Virus record (IMG/VR): IMGVR_UViG_3300025870_000094
Coordinates: 1-21,052 of that record
From: a virus
DNA length: 21,052 nucleotides
Strand: one strand, 5' to 3'
Shown here: one piece after another, positions 1 to 21,052 of the stretch
How positions within the stretch are numbered: the stretch's first letter is position 1
Layout of the letters: the number at the start of each line of letters is the position of its first letter
Notes under the pieces: model-generated
Seen by the model: only the letters and a program-made list of their open reading frames with translations
What the model was told of the DNA's origin: nothing
Database searches by the model: none
Made by a program: the position numbers and the translations under genes

Positions 1-606
1 TGTATCCTCGACACCTTTGGCGGCACTGCTAGACATTGTTAAACCTAATGCCTTAGCCTCGCCCAGCATTTCTTTTAGGCCATCGCTGCCTTGGGATAGG
101 GTGTTTACAAGCGCAGCACCCTCAGAGTCAAACAGCTTAAACGCTAAACGCAGCCTGTCTGATTCTGATTTCACACCTTCAAACGCATCAGCCAAAACAA
201 TCATGCGCTCATCAAGCGGCATTCTGTTTAGTTCTTGGGCATTTATACCCAGTTCCTTGATTGCGCCTTTTGCTTCACCTGTACCTTTGGCGGCTTCCGC
301 AGTTCTACGGGTAAACCTTTGCAGAGCCATATCCATAGTCTGCGTAGATACGCCAGTAAGGTCAGCCGCATATCTTAATGCGCCCAAAGCCTCAGTGGTT
401 GTGCCTATCTTTGCAGCAGTCTTTGCTAGGGAGTCGGTAGCTAACAGGGATTGTCTGATCAGCAGCGTAAATGCAGCACCAGCCAAAGCTGTTTTAAGGT
501 TAAGCACTACCCTAGATACAGCCTTAATGCCTCTCGTTGCAGATTTAAGGCCCTTCGATGTTACATCAAGCGCACTAATTACTATTTTAAAATTGCTATC
601 AGCCAT
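1..606 (-). CDS. Tail tape measure protein, N-terminal part (runs off window)
   Basis: The frame is open from an ATG at 606 to the window edge, giving 202 residues with no stop. The protein begins MADSNFKIVISALDVTSKGL and continues as alanine/lysine-rich, largely helical sequence, with a hydrophobic patch near residues 40-52 (LAGAAFTLLI). This resembles the start of siphovirus tape measure proteins, which set tail length and line the tail tube. It lies directly after the tail-chaperone pair, where tape measure genes almost always sit. Its ATG overlaps the last codons of the frameshifted chaperone by 8 bases, so translation may be coupled. The C-terminal bulk, including any lytic domain, is outside the window. 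Confidence 0.88.
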   Translation of the reverse strand, partial: MADSNFKIVISALDVTSKGLKSATRGIKAVSRVVLNLKTALAGAAFTLLIRQSLLATDSLAKTAAKIGTTTEALGALRYAADLTGVSTQTMDMALQRFTRRTAEAAKGTGEAKGAIKELGINAQELNRMPLDERMIVLADAFEGVKSESDRLRLAFKLFDSEGAALVNTLSQGSDGLKEMLGEAKALGLTMSSSAAKGVEDT

Positions 607-1086
607 CGCTCTCACTCATTATTTGGAAATAGGCCAGCCACTCGTTAAAGTGGTTGACAGGCATTTGTTCTGCCTCTGCTATTGTTATGTGAAGCCGATC
701 CGCCAAAGATAATAGATTTATCCTCGATTGATCGGCTCTCAGTTTCCCTCAAGTGCCTCGACAGACTCGATCTCTGCAAACATCTGATTGGCGATTTCAC
801 TAATAACATTAGTTTCCTCGCCCATCAAATCCATGCGATCTTCAGCAGATGAAAAGAGTTTATTGCCGCCCTCATCCTCTGCCTTCATGCAGATCAAATC
901 CACCATAGCACCGATGGTAGTGTTGTTCAGGAAGTTAGGGTGCTTCTTCTGGAGTTGGTCTAGGTCATAACAGGTAATAGCCCTGCTGTATAACTTAAAC
1001 GCTCCCGAATCATCACCCCAAGCAGGTACGGATACCTCCCGCGCCTTAACTTCCCTTCTGTTGCGTAGTTCTTTAGCTAATCCCAT
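599..1086 (-). CDS. Tail assembly chaperone, -1 frameshifted long form (lambda gpGT-like)
   Basis: After a -1 slip on the heptamer at 742-748, the ribosome would bypass the TGA at 739-741 and read 47 more codons to the TGA at 599-601, giving a 162-residue fusion. The extension reads LRADQSRINLLSLADRLHIT and then continues through MPVNHFNEWLAYF. That MP..HF..W.AYF pattern fits the conserved core of gpT-type domains, which recruit tail tube protein to the tape measure. The extension has no plausible independent start. It ends inside the first codons of the tape measure gene. Frameshift efficiency cannot be judged from sequence. Confidence 0.82.
739..1086 (-). CDS. Tail assembly chaperone, short form (lambda gpG-like)
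   Basis: This 115-residue acidic protein (MGLAKELRNRREVKAREVSV...EIESVEALEGN) is preceded by AAGGGG about 6 bases before its ATG. It lies between the tail tube and the tape measure, the standard place for the gpG-type chaperone that binds the tape measure while the tail assembles. Its stop codon is reached immediately after a G GGA AAC heptamer, and the next reading frame is open and resembles gpT. The role comes mainly from position, length and the frameshift arrangement, because the family's sequence is poorly conserved. Confidence 0.82.
   Translation of the reverse strand: MGLAKELRNRREVKAREVSVPAWGDDSGAFKLYSRAITCYDLDQLQKKHPNFLNNTTIGAMVDLICMKAEDEGGNKLFSSAEDRMDLMGEETNVISEIANQMFAEIESVEALEGN
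742..748 (-). promoter_or_regulatory. Programmed -1 frameshift slippery site GGGAAAC
   Basis: Read on the minus strand, the last sense codons of the short chaperone are GAG GGA AAC, followed by TGA. The heptamer G GGA AAC fits the X XXY YYZ rule exactly, so both tRNAs can re-pair on GGG AAA in the -1 frame. The zero-frame stop follows at once, and the -1 frame stays open for 47 codons. This is the same architecture as lambda G-T. Confidence 0.85.
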
Positions 1087-1101: not shown

Positions 1102-1503
1102 TTAAACTTGTGCTTCAGTAACTGCTCCGCTGCACTGGATGGTAAAGCTGGCTTCAACCATGCCATCAAATGCGCCTGTGATAGATCGTGAAGTAACGAT
1201 GCCACCGCCACTAAAGAAAGTCTCGCCAGAGCCTGTTCCAGTGGGATAGATTTCAAAGTCAATATCAGCACGTTCGTCTAGGATTAGTTGCTGTGCATCA
1301 GCCTCGTCCCAGTAACACTCAATAGAAACAGTGTTAGTTGCTAGACCCTGCTTGTAAGTACGCGCAGAATCTCCAATTACTGAATCTTCAATAGTGTCTG
1401 CTGAACCTTCAAAAGTGAATGATCGTACCTCGCCAACCACGGCAACAGTCGTGCCTGAGACTTGTACTTTTACTACTCCAGATGCGCCTGTTTTAGTCGC
1501 CAT
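1102..1503 (-). CDS. Major tail tube protein
   Basis: The product is 133 residues, beginning MATKTGASGVVKVQVSG. It is rich in beta-strand-forming and Gly/Thr/Ser residues, with few charged helices, as expected for the tail-tube fold. It contains SFTFEGSADTIEDS and a Trp-containing CYWDEADAQQL segment, a style seen in phage tube proteins. The ATG follows AGAGG with good spacing. It lies between the tail terminator and the chaperone pair, where the tube gene is expected. It should polymerise into the non-contractile tube around the tape measure. Family membership is inferred from composition, size and position. Confidence 0.78.
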   Translation of the reverse strand: MATKTGASGVVKVQVSGTTVAVVGEVRSFTFEGSADTIEDSVIGDSARTYKQGLATNTVSIECYWDEADAQQLILDERADIDFEIYPTGTGSGETFFSGGGIVTSRSITGAFDGMVEASFTIQCSGAVTEAQV

Positions 1504-1524: not shown

Positions 1525-1959
1525 TTAAGTTGTGCCGCGAGTGTACTGATACAAAACGCGAACTGTTATAATGACCCCACCGATGGGGTCAATAGAACCT
1601 TGGTCGATCTCGATGCTTGTGATCTGCGTATCTAAGGCGCTACCGCCACGATACCGATCAACATCCAAACCCTCTTCAACTGCCTCGATAATGTTGTTTC
1701 GGGCTGTATCAATTACAGACCCTTTTACAAAACAAACCAGTTCATAATCTATTGTAGCCATGCGCTGAGTGATTGACCCGCCTAAACTACTATCTTCCCG
1801 ATTCTCTCCTGCGCTCCTAACTAGGATTGCTGGATACTGGGCGTTAGATAGCTTGTCAAACGCAAACGGCTCTCTCGTCACATACTTAACCGCTACAGGC
1901 GATGTGATCGCTTGCAGGGTAGTGACGATATTATTGGCAATGCTTTCTCTTACACTCAT
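1525..1959 (-). CDS. Tail terminator / tail completion protein (gpU-like role)
   Basis: This 144-residue protein starts MSVRESIANNIVTTLQAI, an amphipathic helix, and continues as alternating strands and helices. It carries PAILVRSAGE and ends in strands (VIITVRVLYQYTRGTT). Length, the helix-then-beta layout and the position between the gp10-like protein and the tube match tail terminator proteins, which cap the tube and join it to the head. Its ATG overlaps the upstream stop as ATGA. The assignment is structural and positional, because no invariant motif is visible. Confidence 0.68.
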   Translation of the reverse strand: MSVRESIANNIVTTLQAITSPVAVKYVTREPFAFDKLSNAQYPAILVRSAGENREDSSLGGSITQRMATIDYELVCFVKGSVIDTARNNIIEAVEEGLDVDRYRGGSALDTQITSIEIDQGSIDPIGGVIITVRVLYQYTRGTT

Positions 1960-3158: not shown

Positions 3159-3992
3159 TTACAGTGCAGCGTCAGACAGAATCTCGACACCAAACGCATC
3201 ATCCAACTCAGCAACACCATAAATGGCAGTAGCGTTGAGTTCAAATGCACGAGCAGCAGCATCACGCTGTGGCTCAATCTGGAAGTCGCGCTTCATTGCA
3301 ATGGCGAGGGCTTCTGGAGCGAATACCGCACCTTTAGCATCGTCGTTGCCGTCGATAGACACGTTAGCTGACTCGTAAACATTGATACCAGCGATAGTAC
3401 CAACATAACCGTTGCGCATTGCTTCATTCTGCAAGTCGCCACCATTCGGGTTAGCGAATGTGTTGGTCAGGTTAGCTTTCAACTGGTACGCTTGGAAAGG
3501 ATGTACGACAGCGTTGATAGTGCCAGTAACCTTAGCAGCGCGTAGAGTAGCAGCAGCCTTGAACAGGTCAGCTACAGTGATCTCTGCACCAGCAGTACCG
3601 ATAGAGCCAGAGAATCCGTCAAACAGAGCGATCAGGTCAGTGTCGATCTTGGTAGCGATAGCGTTACCCAGAACAGTACCTAACTCTTCAGCAGGATTGC
3701 CAGCGCCCATAGCGGCTAGGTCAGTCAACAGAACCTGTGCGCCTACTTCGCCAACAGTTACAGAAACTGAAGAAGTAGATACAGTGGTTGAAGTCATTGC
3801 AGTGCCTTCAGTCAAATCAGCAGCAGCGATGGCTGGGTACTTAGGAACCTGAATGGTTTTACCAGCTTGTGCGCCAATGTTGTACTGAGTCACTAGACCC
3901 ATCATTAGGGATTGCTCTTCGGCAGTGAAACGAGCCTGAGCGATAATATTGACGAACAGGTCGTCGAGAGTACTTGAAGTTGTTGCAGCCAT
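3159..3992 (-). CDS. Major capsid protein (HK97-fold type)
   Basis: The product is 277 residues, beginning MAATTSSTLDDLFVNIIAQA. It contains GKTIQVPKYP, an Ala/Thr-rich region, AEELGTVLGNAIATKIDTDLIALFDGF (a long spine-type helix) and VVHPFQAYQLK, followed by GYVGTIAGINVYES and a C-terminal ATAIYGVAELDDAFGVEILSD. The TIAGINVYES and ALAIAMKRDFQIEPQRD segments are typical of the A- and P-domain strands of phage capsid proteins. It lies directly after the scaffold gene. A good AGAGG ribosome site precedes the ATG. There is no N-terminal delta domain and no nearby protease, so assembly is probably scaffold-driven. Confidence 0.88.
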   Translation of the reverse strand: MAATTSSTLDDLFVNIIAQARFTAEEQSLMMGLVTQYNIGAQAGKTIQVPKYPAIAAADLTEGTAMTSTTVSTSSVSVTVGEVGAQVLLTDLAAMGAGNPAEELGTVLGNAIATKIDTDLIALFDGFSGSIGTAGAEITVADLFKAAATLRAAKVTGTINAVVHPFQAYQLKANLTNTFANPNGGDLQNEAMRNGYVGTIAGINVYESANVSIDGNDDAKGAVFAPEALAIAMKRDFQIEPQRDAAARAFELNATAIYGVAELDDAFGVEILSDAAL

Positions 3993-10611: not shown

Positions 10612-11043
10612 TTACATCTCACCTATGCGCCATTCCTCATCTTTGATCTGCTCTTTTAAGTCTCTGGCAAACTGAATTACCTCTTCCCTGTTAAACTTAG
10701 GCGATGCCCTCCAAGCCAGACGCTCCATAGCCTTTACTCTGCGCTCGCCATAGTAATCAACCATCCACTGCCTGTACCTTAGTACGTAGTGCGCTTGTTT
10801 CATACCCCAGAGGTTGCAAGAGGGGCACTGCACCTGAATATTGGGCTCATACAGTTTAAAGATAGTGCGGCCTCTAGGGATAAAGTGACCGCCCTGCATG
10901 TTCTTATAGTGGTCTACCTTGCCGCAGGTAACGCACTGACAGTATCCATTGTCATCTGATGCCTTTAACCTAACTAGGCGCTGCATCAGCTTTGCCGCTT
11001 TCTCAACCTCTTGAGCGACAGTCGATTTCTTCCTCTTCGCCAT
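10612..11043 (-). CDS. ninG: NinG/Rap-like recombination protein
   Basis: This 143-residue protein has the NinG layout: a lysine-rich start (MAKRKKSTVAQEVEKAAKLM), paired cysteines CQCVTC at 35-40 and CPSC at 73-76, and between them the strongly conserved MQGGHFIPRG. A helical C-terminal part follows (REEVIQFARDLKEQIKDEEW). In lambda, Rap (NinG) is a structure-specific nuclease that acts on recombination intermediates such as D-loops and Holliday junctions. It is shorter than lambda Rap (about 204 residues), but the zinc-binding and His motif region is complete. Its start overlaps the DUF3310 gene by 41 bases. Confidence 0.87.
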   Translation of the reverse strand: MAKRKKSTVAQEVEKAAKLMQRLVRLKASDDNGYCQCVTCGKVDHYKNMQGGHFIPRGRTIFKLYEPNIQVQCPSCNLWGMKQAHYVLRYRQWMVDYYGERRVKAMERLAWRASPKFNREEVIQFARDLKEQIKDEEWRIGEM

Positions 11044-11233
11044 ATTCTAGTTCCAGTAGCAATTCACAATAGTGGATGATCTTTTTAATATCTTCTGCGC
11101 CATTTTTATCCCTAGTCGCATACTTAATGATATTTCCGCGAATAAAATCTAATTTGTTTGCGGTGATATATTCTATCGGCTGGATAGCCAGCTTGTAGTG
11201 ATCTCCACCCTCCTGTTTGTTGAGTGCGCTCAT
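11003..11233 (-). CDS. DUF3310 family small protein
   Basis: The product is 76 residues. MSALNKQEGGDHYKLAIQPI starts it, followed by EYITANKLDFIRGNIIKYAT and EDIKKIIHYCELLLELE. The signature GGDHY...IQPIEYI...N.L.F..GN.IKY..R is typical of DUF3310, a family widespread in phage early regions, sometimes annotated as nucleotide kinase without proof. The start is in an ATGA overlap with the zinc-ribbon gene, and its end overlaps NinG. Role unknown, presumably in nucleotide or DNA metabolism. Confidence 0.85.
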   Translation of the reverse strand: MSALNKQEGGDHYKLAIQPIEYITANKLDFIRGNIIKYATRDKNGAEDIKKIIHYCELLLELEYGEEEEIDCRSRG

Positions 11234-11409
11234 TCTTCTGCCTCCGAATCCACAACTTTAATTTCACAAGGAACCCCAATATTACAATAAGGGCAAATAC
11301 CATAAGCGTTATCATCGTCGCCAACCCAATACTCAAGGCCATTACCGCAATCACAAAACTGTCTAACAGCATAAATCCCGTTCTGTGGAAAGTTAATAAC
11401 ATTGCTCAT
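11230..11409 (-). CDS. Zinc-ribbon protein, 59 residues
   Basis: The ATG at 11409 and the TGA at 11230 overlap both neighbours in ATGA fashion, leaving no gap in the operon. The protein starts MSNVINFPQNGIYAVRQFCD and holds CDCG at residues 19-22 and CPYC at 39-42, with a further Cys at 48. That is a compact four-cysteine zinc ribbon with an acidic loop (GDDDNAYG) and an acidic tail (VDSEAEE). Another frame over the same DNA looks membrane-like but fits the operon poorly. Binding of nucleic acid or a protein partner is likely, but the partner is unknown. Confidence 0.75.
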   Translation of the reverse strand: MSNVINFPQNGIYAVRQFCDCGNGLEYWVGDDDNAYGICPYCNIGVPCEIKVVDSEAEE

Positions 11410-12578
11410 TTATTCCCCACTGTAATTTTAACCCTTGAATCTTCCCCGCTGTCTTTGTGATAAACCACAGCAGTCATTGATCGCTCTGCGCCATACCCTG
11501 AGTCTGAGTGCCATTGGTCGGTACTGGTCAGGCTGCCCCAGTGTTCAAAGTGCATCGAGCCAACTTCCCTCGCGGTGTGGTGGTGGATATGCCCCAAGTG
11601 ACAATAGCGATTTTTAGACTGGCTCCATTCATCGTCGAGATTCTTAATTACTGCCTGTAGAATCTGCTCATGCTTCATCCTGTCGCCATGGTGGAAAACA
11701 AAAAGATTATTGTTCCATTGGTAGTGTATAAACTTGGAATAATTAGGCAGCACATCTACCCGCTTCTCTTCTCTATACAGTAACTCAATGCAGCTAGACA
11801 AGTGGCAAGCCATGTCAGAATCATGGTTGCCTCGAACATTAATCACAACCACTTTTTTATGCACTGCCAGCATTTGGTCAATTAGAATCTGGAACAGCCG
11901 CCCTGCCAGCTTAAAGGTCTTTCCAATGCGGGTGTCGACATCAACCCTAGTACCTGCGGTAGTTTCATTCTTGCTCGAATCTGCATGAAAGAAGTCACCG
12001 ACATTAAGCAAAACACCAACCTCTGCATCCCCTACTCGCTTAGAAAGTCTAGCCGTTGAATCAATAAGAATCTGTGTGGCTATCTTTATGTCCCAGTCAT
12101 CATCATCTAGCTTTGTTTCACTGTCGGCCAGCATCCCAAAGTGATGGTCGCCTATCATATACATGGCTAAATAATCTGCGTTGACTTTGGCGGGGGGATT
12201 TGCTGGTTTTTTTAAGCCCTTTAGGTCATCGGTGAGGCCATCAACCACTGCGTCGATTTTGGCCTTCATATCGCGCTTGTGCGGCTCTTGGATAACCCAC
12301 TGGAGCGCAACAGAGCCATCGTCTTTATAGGCAGTGGATATTCGCTTGGCCTCAAATCCCTCTGCGGTCTGGTGAACCAAATCTCTGTGCGGTGCTACCC
12401 CCTGAGAGGCAGCCTTCTTTTCCAGATTTTTAATTATTTTATCAACGCTCTGCCTAGCACACCCTAACTCTTTTGACGCTTTGTTTGCAGAACCTGTGGC
12501 AATTACCGAATCTATAACTTGCCGCTGTCTATCACTTGCTGCAAATTCCTTTAGAACCCTTGGGTCAACCTTTTGCAT
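11406..12578 (-). CDS. HTH-metallophosphoesterase (DNA-associated nuclease/phosphatase type)
   Basis: The product is 390 residues. The N-terminal part (about 15-55) looks like a helix-turn-helix: SANKASKELGCARQSVDKII. The C-terminal domain has all calcineurin-like metal motifs: GDHHFG at 143-148, GDFFH at 194-198, GNHDSD at 250-255, HHGD at 296-299 and GHIHHH at 329-334. Such enzymes use two metal ions to cleave phosphodiesters, and relatives in phages sit in recombination clusters like Mre11/SbcD-type proteins. Lying between NinB and NinG, it probably acts on DNA. The substrate is not shown by sequence. Confidence 0.85.
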   Translation of the reverse strand: MQKVDPRVLKEFAASDRQRQVIDSVIATGSANKASKELGCARQSVDKIIKNLEKKAASQGVAPHRDLVHQTAEGFEAKRISTAYKDDGSVALQWVIQEPHKRDMKAKIDAVVDGLTDDLKGLKKPANPPAKVNADYLAMYMIGDHHFGMLADSETKLDDDDWDIKIATQILIDSTARLSKRVGDAEVGVLLNVGDFFHADSSKNETTAGTRVDVDTRIGKTFKLAGRLFQILIDQMLAVHKKVVVINVRGNHDSDMACHLSSCIELLYREEKRVDVLPNYSKFIHYQWNNNLFVFHHGDRMKHEQILQAVIKNLDDEWSQSKNRYCHLGHIHHHTAREVGSMHFEHWGSLTSTDQWHSDSGYGAERSMTAVVYHKDSGEDSRVKITVGNK

Positions 12579-12580
12579 CC

Positions 12581-13039
12581 TTAACGCTCCTGCTTGGCCT
12601 GTAGTTCGGCATACTCACTCTCTGCGGGTATTGATAACCGAATGCCCTGCTTGTTAGCCCAATGATACACGTTATCCAAAAAGTGTACCATTTCGCCTTT
12701 GGATAGCTTGCTGGTGCTTCTTACCTGCTCAGGGATGTGCTGGTTGCCTATCGAGTAACTGTCAACACCCAAGAAACGCTTTTTAAGCCACAGCTTCCAC
12801 ACCTGATCGGGTTCTGCATGATCTATCTTGTGGCCTTTCTTTGCCATTTCTGTGGCTATCTCCCTATACCAGATATGCGACATAGCGTTCTGGCTTAAAC
12901 TTCTGGGGCTTTCATACTTGTCTAGCTTCACCACCAAGGGGTTATCAAAATCCCATGACTCGATGCGCTTTAGGATAAAAGGGAGTTTTGCCTCTACCTC
13001 CCTCTTGTCGTTAATTCTTACATGGTCGCCCTGTGTCAT
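12581..13039 (-). CDS. ninB: NinB recombination protein
   Basis: This 152-residue protein contains SPRSLSQNAMSHIWYREIAT at about 45-64, then HAEPDQVWKLWLKKRFLG and STSKLSKGEMVHFLDNVYHW near the end. The R..QN...H..Y-.IA and KGEM..FLD.VYHWA patterns are hallmarks of NinB (lambda Orf), which binds SSB-coated single-stranded DNA and helps load recombinases, replacing host RecFOR. It fits an operon with ERF, exonuclease and an SSB-like protein. The ATG overlaps the previous stop (ATGA). The family is usually about 140-150 residues, so it is full length. Confidence 0.92.
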   Translation of the reverse strand: MTQGDHVRINDKREVEAKLPFILKRIESWDFDNPLVVKLDKYESPRSLSQNAMSHIWYREIATEMAKKGHKIDHAEPDQVWKLWLKKRFLGVDSYSIGNQHIPEQVRSTSKLSKGEMVHFLDNVYHWANKQGIRLSIPAESEYAELQAKQER

Positions 13040-15225: not shown

Positions 15226-15525
15226 TTAAAAGGGTATATCTTCGTCCATTTCCTCAACGCTTACCCCGCCAAGATTCTGAGGCGGCTTTTCAGTTTGCCC
15301 ATCAGTAAAGAAAACCTTTACGTTGCCAAGGATAGGTGTTTGCACCTGAGCCTCGCGCTCTTCCTTGGTGGTTGACTGAGAAATAAAGCCATTGTTCTCA
15401 TACTGGTCTTGCTGCTCGGTATCCACAAAGGTCGTTAGGTCAAGATAAGTACCCTTCGTGCCTTTATACAGGCGGCTTTTGTCGATCTTTGTAACGTCGA
15501 TTCGTACAGATAATCCTACTTTCAT
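15226..15525 (-). CDS. Single-stranded DNA-binding-like protein
   Basis: This 99-residue protein begins MKVGLSVRIDVTKIDKSRLY, continues with strand-rich sequence (GTKGTYLDLTTFV) as in an OB fold, and ends in an acidic tail VEEMDEDIPF. The DIPF end copies the C-terminal tip of bacterial SSB, which recruits repair proteins. It lies directly after the exonuclease gene (ATGA overlap), completing an exonuclease-annealing-SSB set. Sequence similarity to classical SSB is otherwise low, and the protein is small, so the call is by tail, fold impression and context. Confidence 0.68.
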   Translation of the reverse strand: MKVGLSVRIDVTKIDKSRLYKGTKGTYLDLTTFVDTEQQDQYENNGFISQSTTKEEREAQVQTPILGNVKVFFTDGQTEKPPQNLGGVSVEEMDEDIPF

Positions 15526-16130
15526 TTTAACTTCTCCACTTGGTTTAGTATTTCAGCCACAGCCTTTTCGACTTCGATGGCTAGTTTTGCGATATATTCG
15601 TCATCGCGTCCAACCCTCACTAGAACGTGAGGCATTTCTGGGTGGTAGGCAAAGAAGTCCCACCAATCTCTTTTGGTAATCCACATACAACCTTGGATTT
15701 GTTGCCAGTATTTTTTAACGCCCACCTGCGGTTCTCTAAGATAGCTAACCATCGTTTTAGGGGCTGGGCATTTTATCTCCAAGCCTCCCAGACTTTCGCC
15801 CTCTAAAATCAACCCATCAGGCGAACAGCCAAACTCAAAGCTAGTGTCAAGAATAAAGCCAGTCTCGATAACATCATTGCCAGAGATAAACTCGTATGCC
15901 TCCCTAGCTTCTGGCTCTAACGCTGTGCCGCGCTCCATCCATTCGGTAACATGAAACGGCTCAGATTGCCCTGTAAGGCGTTCTGCGATTAATTCATTGA
16001 CATACCCATCAGCAGAACTAGATGGCTTCCCAGTAAGCGTAATCAGCTTAGAAAACATACTAGCGGAAGGCTTGCCCAGTCGTGCAGCAAGCCATTCGGG
16101 TGAACCCTGCTCATGGTCTAAGATAATCAC
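15522..16130 (-). CDS. YqaJ/lambda-exonuclease-type 5'-3' exonuclease
   Basis: The product is 202 residues, starting at a GTG in a GTGA overlap with the ERF stop. EQGSPEWLAARLGKPSASMF at the N-terminus is the usual R-lead motif of YqaJ-type recombinases. GTALEPEAREAYE supplies a catalytic helix Glu, followed by FGCSPDGLIL (D105) and GGLEIKCP (E118, K120), the E-D-ExK metal set. WQQIQGCMWITKR follows. It degrades one strand of double-stranded DNA to leave 3' tails for ERF. Such enzymes form rings. Length agrees with lambda exonuclease (226 residues). Confidence 0.93.
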   Translation of the reverse strand: MIILDHEQGSPEWLAARLGKPSASMFSKLITLTGKPSSSADGYVNELIAERLTGQSEPFHVTEWMERGTALEPEAREAYEFISGNDVIETGFILDTSFEFGCSPDGLILEGESLGGLEIKCPAPKTMVSYLREPQVGVKKYWQQIQGCMWITKRDWWDFFAYHPEMPHVLVRVGRDDEYIAKLAIEVEKAVAEILNQVEKLK

Positions 16131-16690
16131 TTCTTAGCCTCTAGTGCGGCAACCGCGCGATCAAAGTGCATCGCTAGTATCTGGTCAACAGAACGCACCT
16201 TCATCCACTTGCAGAATTTATCAACGTCAGCACCAGTCTCATCAAGTAATTTCTTGATGGCGATGATCTGGTCATCAGAGATAATCTTCTTATCATCACC
16301 GCGTAGCATTGCTGATTCGGCATCATCATCTGCCGTAGGGATTCCCGCGATAGAAGATAAAGATACACGACGCGCATACGTCAGGGAGCTTGAAGCCGCC
16401 TGTGGGTCACGCTTAACCACTGGCAAAGTAAATTGACCTTCTAGCCATTGCCCAGAAACGTGCATTAGCCTTGTGCAAACTCCCATTCCATTTTCATCGG
16501 TGACTGGAAACTGGGTATAGCTTAGGCCGTTATCAGCAAAGGGCTGCTTGATGGCCTTAATAACTGACGTTAGGTCAGCATAGCTAGATTTAAAGAAAGG
16601 GTTGGCACTGTCTTTAACAGCACCCCCCATTTGACCCTGCGCGTTACATAGTGCGCTGGCTAACTCATTGATTGACTCACTTGATTTCAT
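16127..16690 (-). CDS. erf: ERF-family single-strand annealing protein
   Basis: This 187-residue protein shows the ERF core: GAVKDSANPFFKSSYADLTS at about 23-42, then ADNGLSYTQFPV, QAASSSLTYARRVSLSSIAG and IPTADDDAE. These are the signature strands and helices of ERF. It anneals the single-stranded ends made by the exonuclease. AGGAGG lies 6 bases before the ATG, one of the strongest ribosome sites in the window, and the start overlaps the upstream 51-residue gene. The C-terminal part (about 135-187, including DKFCKWMKVRSVDQI) is helical and variable in the family. Confidence 0.93.
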   Translation of the reverse strand: MKSSESINELASALCNAQGQMGGAVKDSANPFFKSSYADLTSVIKAIKQPFADNGLSYTQFPVTDENGMGVCTRLMHVSGQWLEGQFTLPVVKRDPQAASSSLTYARRVSLSSIAGIPTADDDAESAMLRGDDKKIISDDQIIAIKKLLDETGADVDKFCKWMKVRSVDQILAMHFDRAVAALEAKK

Positions 16691-17160: not shown

Positions 17161-17559
17161 CTAGTATGACCAGATAGCAGGGCAGGGAAACCCATCATCC
17201 TCAGTACAGGCATCTAGGTGGATAAATCTGCCGCCACCCTTCTGCTGTATGCCGATTCGCTTAATACCATGCTTCTGAGCCACTCTAATGATCTCTAACG
17301 CCTTTTGTCCGTTGGCTAGTATATCGACCGCCTTGCCAGTTGTATGCGCTCCTAGCACCTCTTTACGCACTTCTATGGGATGCTGTGGGCTTCTGTAGGC
17401 AGATGACAGGGCAAAGCTAAAGCCGCACTCGTGTCGGATAGCATTTAGGGTAGCTAGAAACCCCAGATCAAACCCATGCTCACCAGTATGCTTGCAAGCC
17501 AGTTCCTTGGGTTTAAAGTAATTAGGTTTGTCATCTTTCTTTTTGGTTGCTTTAGCCAT
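17161..17559 (-). CDS. M15-family peptidase endolysin
   Basis: The product is 132 residues. After a basic start (MAKATKKKDDKPNYF) the catalytic domain shows SSAYRSPQHPIEV, GAHTTGKAVDI (H72, D79) and RFIHLD (H114, D116). This is the zinc-binding H-x6-D...HxD set of the M15_3 (D-Ala-D-Ala carboxypeptidase-like) family, which cuts the peptide cross-links of the cell wall. No signal peptide is seen, so release depends on the holin next door. Its start shares a base with the holin stop (TAATG). Length equals typical single-domain M15 endolysins. Confidence 0.9.
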   Translation of the reverse strand: MAKATKKKDDKPNYFKPKELACKHTGEHGFDLGFLATLNAIRHECGFSFALSSAYRSPQHPIEVRKEVLGAHTTGKAVDILANGQKALEIIRVAQKHGIKRIGIQQKGGGRFIHLDACTEDDGFPCPAIWSY

Positions 17560-17963
17560 TATTTGTCCCTCTGTACGCCTTTAACCTTTTCCACCGATCT
17601 CATCGCTCCAAGTCCGAGCATACCCATCAGAACAGGCATCATCTCGCCAGTAGGGATTAAGGGGACACTGACATCAGAGCCGACCAGTTCTAAAATCATA
17701 TTGGTGATTGGAATGGTGATAAAGTTACCCGCCATGCCCAGTACGCAGACCCAGCCGATTGCTGGCCTCCACCCTGCGACGAATAAACTCTTGTGGGCAG
17801 CTTCTGCCTTGTTGACCTCTAGCTGCCCCATAACACTTTCATGCGCCTGTTTTTCTGCCATTGTCGCAATTTCATGCGCCAAAGCATTCTTTTGATCTTT
17901 ATCCTCGATAAACTTATCTAAAAGACCAGATATAGGCTGTGCCAGAGTTGCGAGTAAACTCAT
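17559..17963 (-). CDS. Holin, 3TM-type
   Basis: This 134-residue protein has an amphipathic N-terminus (MSLLATLAQPISGLLDKFIE) and a charged helix to about residue 58. Membrane segments follow: FVAGWRPAIGWVCVLGMAGN, ITIPITNMILELV and MMPVLMGMLGLGAM. The sequence AGWRPAIGWVC and the ending GLGAMRSVEKVKG are characteristic of the 3TM holin family. It forms inner-membrane holes at a set time and lets the endolysin out. The ATGA overlap with the upstream XhlA-like gene and the overlap with the endolysin show one lysis cassette. Confidence 0.9.
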   Translation of the reverse strand: MSLLATLAQPISGLLDKFIEDKDQKNALAHEIATMAEKQAHESVMGQLEVNKAEAAHKSLFVAGWRPAIGWVCVLGMAGNFITIPITNMILELVGSDVSVPLIPTGEMMPVLMGMLGLGAMRSVEKVKGVQRDK

Positions 17964-19638: not shown

Positions 19639-21052
19639 TTATTCCTCTAATGCCGCTATGCGGGCTGTTAGTGATTCAATTAAGGTTTGTTGCTCCTGTA
19701 TTGCTTTGACAAGTACAGGCACTAACTCAGTGTATCTGACTGACATGTACTCAGTGTCGTCACCTGTTTTCTTTACTGGGTCAATAACTTCATCCAAAAC
19801 ACCAACTAAGTCTTGAGCCATTAAGCCTATCTTTTTCTTATCTTCAGCAGAATCAACGTCTTTAAGCCTATACTTCACTGTCCTTAGATTGCTTAGACTT
19901 TCCACCGCATTCTCAACTGGCTCTACGTCATATTTAAGACGCTCGTCAGAGAATGTACCCCAACTTGTACCACCTGAAGCTAAGTGTACGCCTGATGTTT
20001 CAGCACCAGAATAAATACGCAAAGACCTGAATGTTGAGTTTTGTCCCATATAGTAGGCATTTGAATCAAGCCAGTGGTTTGCGGTGTAGGTACTTGCCGC
20101 CCCGTCAATCCTAAAGTGCGGGCTTGCTTCTGATCCGTCTGTAGCTCGACTAAGATGCAAGCGAGCTGCTGGCGCAGAAGTGCCTATGGCGACGTTGCCA
20201 GAGGAGTCTATGCGCATACGTTCTGCGTTGTTGTGACCTCGTAGCTGCAACGAGTTATCAGAGTTATTAAAAACAATGCCGCCTTTTATTTCATCTGTTT
20301 GGCCACCTAGAAATAACCCTGCTGTTCCAGTGTCACTTGATTTTATAATAGCAACACATTCCGAGTCATTTTCATTAATAACCAATGTTTTGGATGGCGA
20401 TGCAGTCCCTATGCCTACATTGCCAGAGGAGTCAATACGCATCTTTTCGCTATTGTCTATATCTACTCGGAAATAGCTTCCAGAAGATACATTTCCTTCA
20501 TCTACTCTTATGCAATATCCTGTATTGGCTTCTGAGATTATTTCATGGTAAACACCAGACACATCAGTATCTTCTAATCTAATGGAAGGCACTGCTTCTT
20601 TTAAATGCAATGTTCTGCTAGGCGATGTAGTCCCTATGCCCACGTTGCCAGAGGAGTCTATGCGCATGCGTTCAGTAGCAACTGTATCGAAAGACATATA
20701 GTTAGAATCGTGATGATACTCAATAGTGCCTATCGCTGATGCTGAATTGTCTGCAAAAAATATTTTTGACTCACCAGAATCTACTGAATCAAGGCGTAAA
20801 ACAGAATTACCTGCTGTGCTGTGTATTCTTGCTTGTGCTGTGCCTGCCTCGATGTCTAAATCATAAGCAGGGCTACTAGTCCCTATGCCTACGCGATTGT
20901 TAGTTGAGTCAACTGCTAGGGTGGTTGTGTCTACAGTAAGGCCAGCAAAGGCAGGGCTGTCAGTAGTGGCTACGCCCTGATTGATTAAGTCTAGCTTAGT
21001 GCCATCAGCAGCAAGATCACGGCCATCAACAGTACCACCGACAGAGACATTG
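19639..21052 (-). CDS. Tail fibre with S74 intramolecular chaperone (5' end outside window)
   Basis: The frame is open to the window edge, giving at least 470 residues. It shows fibre-type sequence (VSVGGTVDGRDLAADGTKLD near the edge), then repeats of the type RMRIDSSGNVGIGT, a receptor-side region (HWLDSNAYYMGQNSTFRSLR), and a C-terminal S74 domain beginning GTFSDERLKYDVEPVENAVE and including KKIGLMAQDL. In this family the chaperone trimerises the fibre and cuts itself off at the serine of the SDERLK motif. A coiled coil follows at the end (LVKAIQEQQTLIESLTARIA). An ATG at 20697 is internal, not the true start. Confidence 0.88.
   Translation of the reverse strand, partial: NVSVGGTVDGRDLAADGTKLDLINQGVATTDSPAFAGLTVDTTTLAVDSTNNRVGIGTSSPAYDLDIEAGTAQARIHSTAGNSVLRLDSVDSGESKIFFADNSASAIGTIEYHHDSNYMSFDTVATERMRIDSSGNVGIGTTSPSRTLHLKEAVPSIRLEDTDVSGVYHEIISEANTGYCIRVDEGNVSSGSYFRVDIDNSEKMRIDSSGNVGIGTASPSKTLVINENDSECVAIIKSSDTGTAGLFLGGQTDEIKGGIVFNNSDNSLQLRGHNNAERMRIDSSGNVAIGTSAPAARLHLSRATDGSEASPHFRIDGAASTYTANHWLDSNAYYMGQNSTFRSLRIYSGAETSGVHLASGGTSWGTFSDERLKYDVEPVENAVESLSNLRTVKYRLKDVDSAEDKKKIGLMAQDLVGVLDEVIDPVKKTGDDTEYMSVRYTELVPVLVKAIQEQQTLIESLTARIAALEE
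20194..20667. repeat. Imperfect repeats in the tail fibre gene
   Basis: The plus-strand sequence TTGCCAGAGGAGTCTATGCG recurs at about 20195 and 20645, and with changes at about 20420. Together with neighbouring CCCTATGCC(T/C)AC copies it encodes RMRIDSSGNVGIGT-type units. A more diverged copy is coded near 20880-20925. Such repeats can recombine and change fibre length. Confidence 0.7.

Follow-up and report, generated by a model that had tools for sequence, protein, structure and literature searches.

A predicted programmed -1 ribosomal frameshift site abutting the stop codon of a tail assembly chaperone gene in a marine phage and its relatives

The tail gene region and the chaperone pair

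The stretch of DNA analysed here, which we call the window, is 21,052 nucleotides long and comes from a marine phage. The genes of the region under study all lie on the minus strand, in the order tail tube, G, extension and tape measure, which is the position of a G/GT chaperone pair. The features are as follows.

3992..3159, minus strand: major capsid, then small connector genes
1959..1525, minus strand: tail terminator
About 1503..1102, minus strand: tail tube, the upstream neighbour of G
739..1086, minus strand: gpG-like tail assembly chaperone ORF (G), short form, 115 aa, TGA included in the coordinates; PHROG 344; top structural match HK97 chaperone 2OB9
756..759, minus strand: Shine-Dalgarno (SD)-like GAGG, 7 nt 5' of the heptamer, conserved in the three main lineages
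749..751, minus strand: TGA in the -1 frame, immediately 5' of the heptamer
742..748, minus strand: slippery heptamer G_GGA_AAC
739..741, minus strand: short-form stop TGA, adjoining the heptamer
693..737, minus strand: probable stimulatory stem-loop, 5' arm about 737..720 and 3' arm about 710..693, from fold z and covariation
599..742, minus strand: -1 frame extension in the gpT position, 47 codons plus TGA, core MPVNHFNEWLAYF; PHROG 337
599..1086, minus strand: predicted frameshift product G-extension, 162 aa, junction EGN-LRAD; PHROG 16513
1..606, minus strand, running off the window end: tape measure protein, N-terminal part; PHROG 9483, E 5e-46

The G ORF ends in GAG-GGA-AAC-TGA (E-G-N-stop). 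The original prediction had placed a G GGA AAC heptamer directly before the short-form stop, and this proved exact to the base (748..742, with TGA at 741..739). It had also described a -1 frame open for 47 codons and a fusion ending 8 bases inside the tape measure gene. Both statements hold. The -1 frame translates as LRADQSRINLLSLADRLHITIAEAEQMPVNHFNEWLAYFQIMSESDG, 47 codons closed by a TGA at 601..599, and the tape measure ATG lies at 606..604. An alternative GTG start at 615 is not conserved in relatives, and thus the ATG at 606 is the likely tape measure start. The -1 frame TGA at 751..749 and the short-form TGA bracket the heptamer, so a slip into the extension is possible only at these 7 nt.

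Position, PHROG matches and predicted fold together mark G as a tail assembly chaperone. G matched PHROG 344 with an E-value of 6.5e-5 (best match by a family member 5e-7), and it also matched PHROG 16513 and 25875, which places it among the chaperone families. Residues 60-158 of the predicted G-extension product matched the tail assembly chaperone family PHROG 16513 across the junction (E 0.0019; best member 1e-8). The PDB entry closest to an AlphaFold model of G (pLDDT 68) was 2OB9, the HK97 tail assembly chaperone, a moderate match (probability 0.97, TM 0.57-0.60, E 0.11). Pfam gave no match for G or the extension, and a PDB sequence search with the G profile gave none. The extension itself matched the 'tail protein' family PHROG 337 (E 2e-4). 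From its position and these weak PHROG matches, it may tentatively be called gpT-like.

The 21-kb window had no megablast match among deposited phages, and Rfam had zero matches within it. One scan of a genome collection returned a single relative, within a metagenome-assembled genome called Pseudomonadales, which is too thin for naming a host. Elsewhere in the window, the minus strand carries a three-transmembrane holin of the gene-transfer-agent type (17559..17963; PF11351, E 1.5e-19) and an adjoining M15 peptidase (17161..17559), likely a lysis pair. The genes at 10612..13039 and 15522..16690 (minus strand) form a recombination module of NinG-like, NinB/Orf-like, repair exonuclease, RecE-like exonuclease and Erf-like annealing proteins. 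A tail fibre-like ORF (19639..21051, minus strand) runs past the right end of the record.

The start of the tape measure gene (1..606, minus strand) probably has its own history. Over about the first 60 codons, the window carries an allele unlike that of its closest relatives, L002 and L003. In these two, the DNA of G and the extension is 99% identical to the window, whereas the tape measure start is far more divergent; near-identity resumes from about residue 65. The window's allele is also found in the more distant relatives L036 and L068. This difference probably reflects a recombination patch that begins at or near the frameshift stop.

Conservation of the heptamer, the stop and the -1 frame

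A first scan of IMG/VR, with G as the only query, returned 80 loci. GGGAAAC followed directly by TGA or TAA, with a -1 frame of exactly 47 codons, was present in all 80 and in the window. Further scans used an alignment and relatives taken from deposited phages of Roseobacter and Pelagibacter, and they brought the total to 389 loci. These represent 229 sequences that are distinct around the site; they fall into four deep lineages, with G identity down to about 23-30%. At each locus, G proteins were the sole tblastn queries for locating G, after which we read the end of its ORF. A canonical X_XXY_YYZ heptamer lies flush with the short-form stop in 229 of the 229 distinct sites, a tally in which the later scans, which ranked matches by fusion similarity, are biased to intact cases, whereas the first scan is free of this bias. 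The heptamer is AAAAAAC in 98 sites, GGGAAAC in 69, AAAAAAG in 55 and AAAAAAT in 7. The stop differs among sites (TAA, TGA or TAG). The -1 extension is 47-63 codons long and open in every site. Thus, the heptamer and the -1 frame that the original prediction had asked to see in relatives are both retained, and stops do not interrupt the extension in any of them.

We rejected stop-codon readthrough as a source of a longer product. In most of the window's clade the zero frame closes within 6 codons of the stop, and elsewhere it closes at varying places.

The heptamer varies in an orderly way. Within the window's clade, swaps between GGGAAAC and AAAAAAC change all three X bases at once, and the tree of this clade requires three label changes for GGGAAAC. 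At the GGGAAAC sites the residue before GGA may be E, M, Q, L or T, and the last base of its codon is always G. These sites use GGA and AAC without exception; in the rest of the G gene, glycine is encoded by GGT, GGC and GGA about equally and asparagine by AAT in 43% of cases. The retention of the XXX part argues that both tRNAs slip, not one. In the window and in many relatives, a TGA two codons upstream closes the -1 frame; this two-codon opening is shared by 35 of 85 sites of the window's clade.

The extension is under purifying, protein-coding selection in the -1 frame. Base entropy is 0.74 at the third base of the -1 codons vs 0.17 and 0.23 at the other two positions, and the variability is not at the zero-frame third base. 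A W-A-Y core is common to the extensions of all lineages.

This conservation also bears on whether the extension might be an independent small gene, with a start codon of its own at which translation begins through reinitiation or coupling once G has terminated. T-like genes are annotated separately in many phages, and among 64 close relatives, 52 have ATG as the eighth codon of the extension and all have it as the 27th. However, codon 8 in the window is ATA, and in 51 of the 87 sites of the Roseobacter lineage the extension contains neither ATG nor GTG. Moreover, conserved residues are already found at extension codons 1-7, upstream of any start, and a separate gene would leave the heptamer unexplained. 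We regard a separate gene as very improbable. The notion that the heptamer is a fossil or a chance match, with G as the sole product, runs against the universal conservation of the site and the purifying selection that acts in the -1 frame, and we give it next to no weight.

Signals on either side of the heptamer

The original prediction dealt with the heptamer and the two reading frames, and it overlooked the SD-like element, the stem-loop, the strictness with which the stop abuts the heptamer, and the weakness of AAC as an A-site shift codon in E. coli.

Upstream of the heptamer, GAGG occupies the same place in 79 of 85, 85 of 87 and 47 of 55 sites of the three main lineages (211 of 227 altogether). 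The glutamate encoded here is itself a feature of the protein, but the use of GAG for it lies far above background. It is enriched over GAA in each of the three lineages (Fisher 7e-12, 8e-8 and 1e-5). SD sequences that stimulate -1 shifting have been reported at 9-14 nt upstream (PMC5009743). As the gap of 7 nt is shorter than this, we consider a role for GAGG as a stimulator likely but not sure.

Downstream of the stop, a probable stem-loop starts 4-5 nt 3' of the heptamer. The stem of the window folds with a z of -3.34 vs dinucleotide shuffles. When stems of the window's clade were compared with synonymous-codon shuffles, the mean z was -3.35 in 11 GGGAAAC cluster representatives and -3.7 in 4 AAAAAAC representatives. 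Of 38 distinct sequences, 24 have G-C and the other 14 have C-G at one pair of this hairpin, with zero exceptions.

The Roseobacter-phage lineage could be taken to have no stem, as local folding gave mean z values of only -0.4 and -0.3. That reading is wrong because the pairing partner lies about 80 nt away. The 5' arm, GCGAYCCATTC, pairs with GAATGGRTCGC over the codons for NEW[VI]A, and 94% of 792 cells are paired vs 30-44% after sliding by 1-3 columns. Among 66 sequences, one pair is C-G in 35, U-A in 18 and U-G in 13; GAT pairs with ATC or GTC, GAC pairs with GTC only, and C is never found opposite A. Thus, a silent C/T choice in one codon is tied to a choice between valine and isoleucine in another. 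In both arms codon choice is off background, with the pairing codons enriched (P 1e-4 and 8e-8). In the DSL-LC06 lineage the 5' arm finds its partner at codon 26 (z -4.9 and -3.5), and the Pelagibacter lineage has a short, weakly supported hairpin (mean z -1.4). Thus, the 5' arm appears to be fixed just after the stop and the 3' arm to have moved between lineages.

These elements also speak to RNA polymerase slippage, in which a homopolymer would give rise to a fusion mRNA. The relatives with AAAAAAC or AAAAAAG do contain runs of about 7 A. However, the GGGAAAC of the window and of 69 sites has no run longer than 3, at the same place and in the same phase, and the upstream GAGG and downstream RNA stem point to the ribosome. 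Polymerase slippage is therefore hardly credible as the source of the long product.

A model for the frameshift and its comparison with known systems

We propose that this locus is very probably a programmed -1 ribosomal frameshift site from which two tail assembly chaperones are made from one start codon. This was the reading of the original prediction, and no other accounts for the conserved heptamer, the three-base periodicity seen in the -1 frame, the closure of that frame upstream, the order of the genes and the chaperone matches. The majority of ribosomes would read GAG-GGA-AAC and terminate at TGA, which yields the 115-residue G. The remaining minority would move back by one base at G_GGA_AAC (to GGG-AAA), resume at CTG and translate a further 47 codons, giving the 162-residue G-extension protein. 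The GAGG upstream and the stem-loop downstream most likely increase the rate of slipping. AAC has been described as an unfavourable second (A-site) codon for -1 shifting in E. coli and bacteria (PMC4066793). This agrees with either a low set rate or a requirement for stimulators; the two stimulators would offset this weakness. By analogy with lambda, we suggest that G coats the tape measure protein and that the rare long form links the tape measure to the tail tube protein.

The closest parallel for the genes is the gpG/gpGT pair of lambda. Both systems share the order tail tube, G, T and tape measure, a -1 shift (at GGGAAA(G) in lambda), an overlap of T with the tape measure start, and a long form that is a minority product in lambda and is predicted to be one here. 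Lambda makes the two forms at a ratio of 30:1, and the tail tube protein is bound by the T portion (PMC5009743). The two differ in that the Z base of the heptamer is G in lambda and C here, and lambda T is annotated as 144 residues whereas the extension has 47. In lambda, 15 nt separate the shift site from the G stop, whereas heptamer and stop are in direct contact here.

For the signals, the closest parallel is dnaX. E. coli dnaX likewise has an upstream SD-like sequence, a slippery heptamer and a downstream stem-loop (PMC5009743, PMC3711429), but there the shift yields the shorter product and here the longer one. In dnaX of some other bacteria, a zero-frame stop directly follows the shift site, as it does here (PMC5009743). 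We thus describe the site as a predicted tripartite cassette of the dnaX kind, carried by a G/GT gene pair of the lambda type. The same G_GGA_AAC heptamer is found in the g-t chaperone pair of the haloarchaeal virus HCTV-1, which differs in having an archaeal host (PMC5009743).

Nearer relatives have a homologous G, a -1 extension and a heptamer flush with the stop. These are Roseobacter phages of the CRP-822 type, the Pelagibacter phages HTVC112P, HTVC026P and HTVC202P, and phage DSL-LC06. They differ from the window in their heptamers (AAAAAAC, AAAAAAT or AAAAAAG) and in the place of the stem 3' arm. In CRP-831 and CRP-822, the junction that corresponds to EGN-LRAD is EKN-LKGD. The original prediction expected the product to be missed by gene calling, and this is true of deposited genomes. 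In the GenBank records of CRP-831 and CRP-406, the stretch from G to the tape measure is empty, with the extension unannotated and the frameshift product missing (L082 2846-2983 and L083 2846-2983). In the HTVC112P record, a reverse-strand ORF has been called over part of the extension (L084 1867-2013).

The strict contact between heptamer and stop raises the possibility that the stop is a working part of the signal, a 'shifty stop'. In such a mechanism, the ribosome would slip with GGA in the E site, AAC in the P site and the stop in the A site while it awaits a release factor, and the efficiency of termination would set the ratio of G to G-extension. This would be a special case of the -1 frameshift and is compatible with it. 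The contact is present in all 229 sites over four lineages, compared with the 15 nt of lambda, and the mean distance from shift site to stop in SEA-PHAGES genomes is 26 nt (PMC10885494). In addition, AAC performs poorly in the A site, at which bacteria may test codon pairing once the shift has occurred (PMC4066793), and the P site might tolerate it. On the other hand, compact gene ends also account for the abutment, the identity of the stop is variable, and ordinary tandem slippage in the P and A sites would give the same conservation and the same product. We therefore consider a shifty stop to be possible but rather unlikely. We give the same low weight to the combined proposal that the stop takes part, with the ratio tracking termination, and that the stem has been rebuilt by moving its 3' arm among three places. 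If the stop does take part, the ratio of G to G-extension, and hence tail assembly, would respond to termination capacity.

The mechanism of -1 frameshifting is textbook knowledge, and each part of the cassette has a precedent. In open-licence papers there appears to be no description so far of this family's signal, of the invariant contact between stop and heptamer or of the shifting position of the 3' arm, and the paper on CRP-822 makes no mention of a frameshift. The proposed site would extend the lambda-type tail chaperone frameshift to a large and mostly marine group of phages, represented by hundreds of IMG/VR contigs. The group comprises relatives of Pelagibacter and Roseobacter phages, and the long product is missing from deposited annotations. 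The family offers a natural experiment on whether a stop right after a slippery site participates in -1 shifting, and on how a stimulatory RNA stem may swap its pairing partner yet keep its function.
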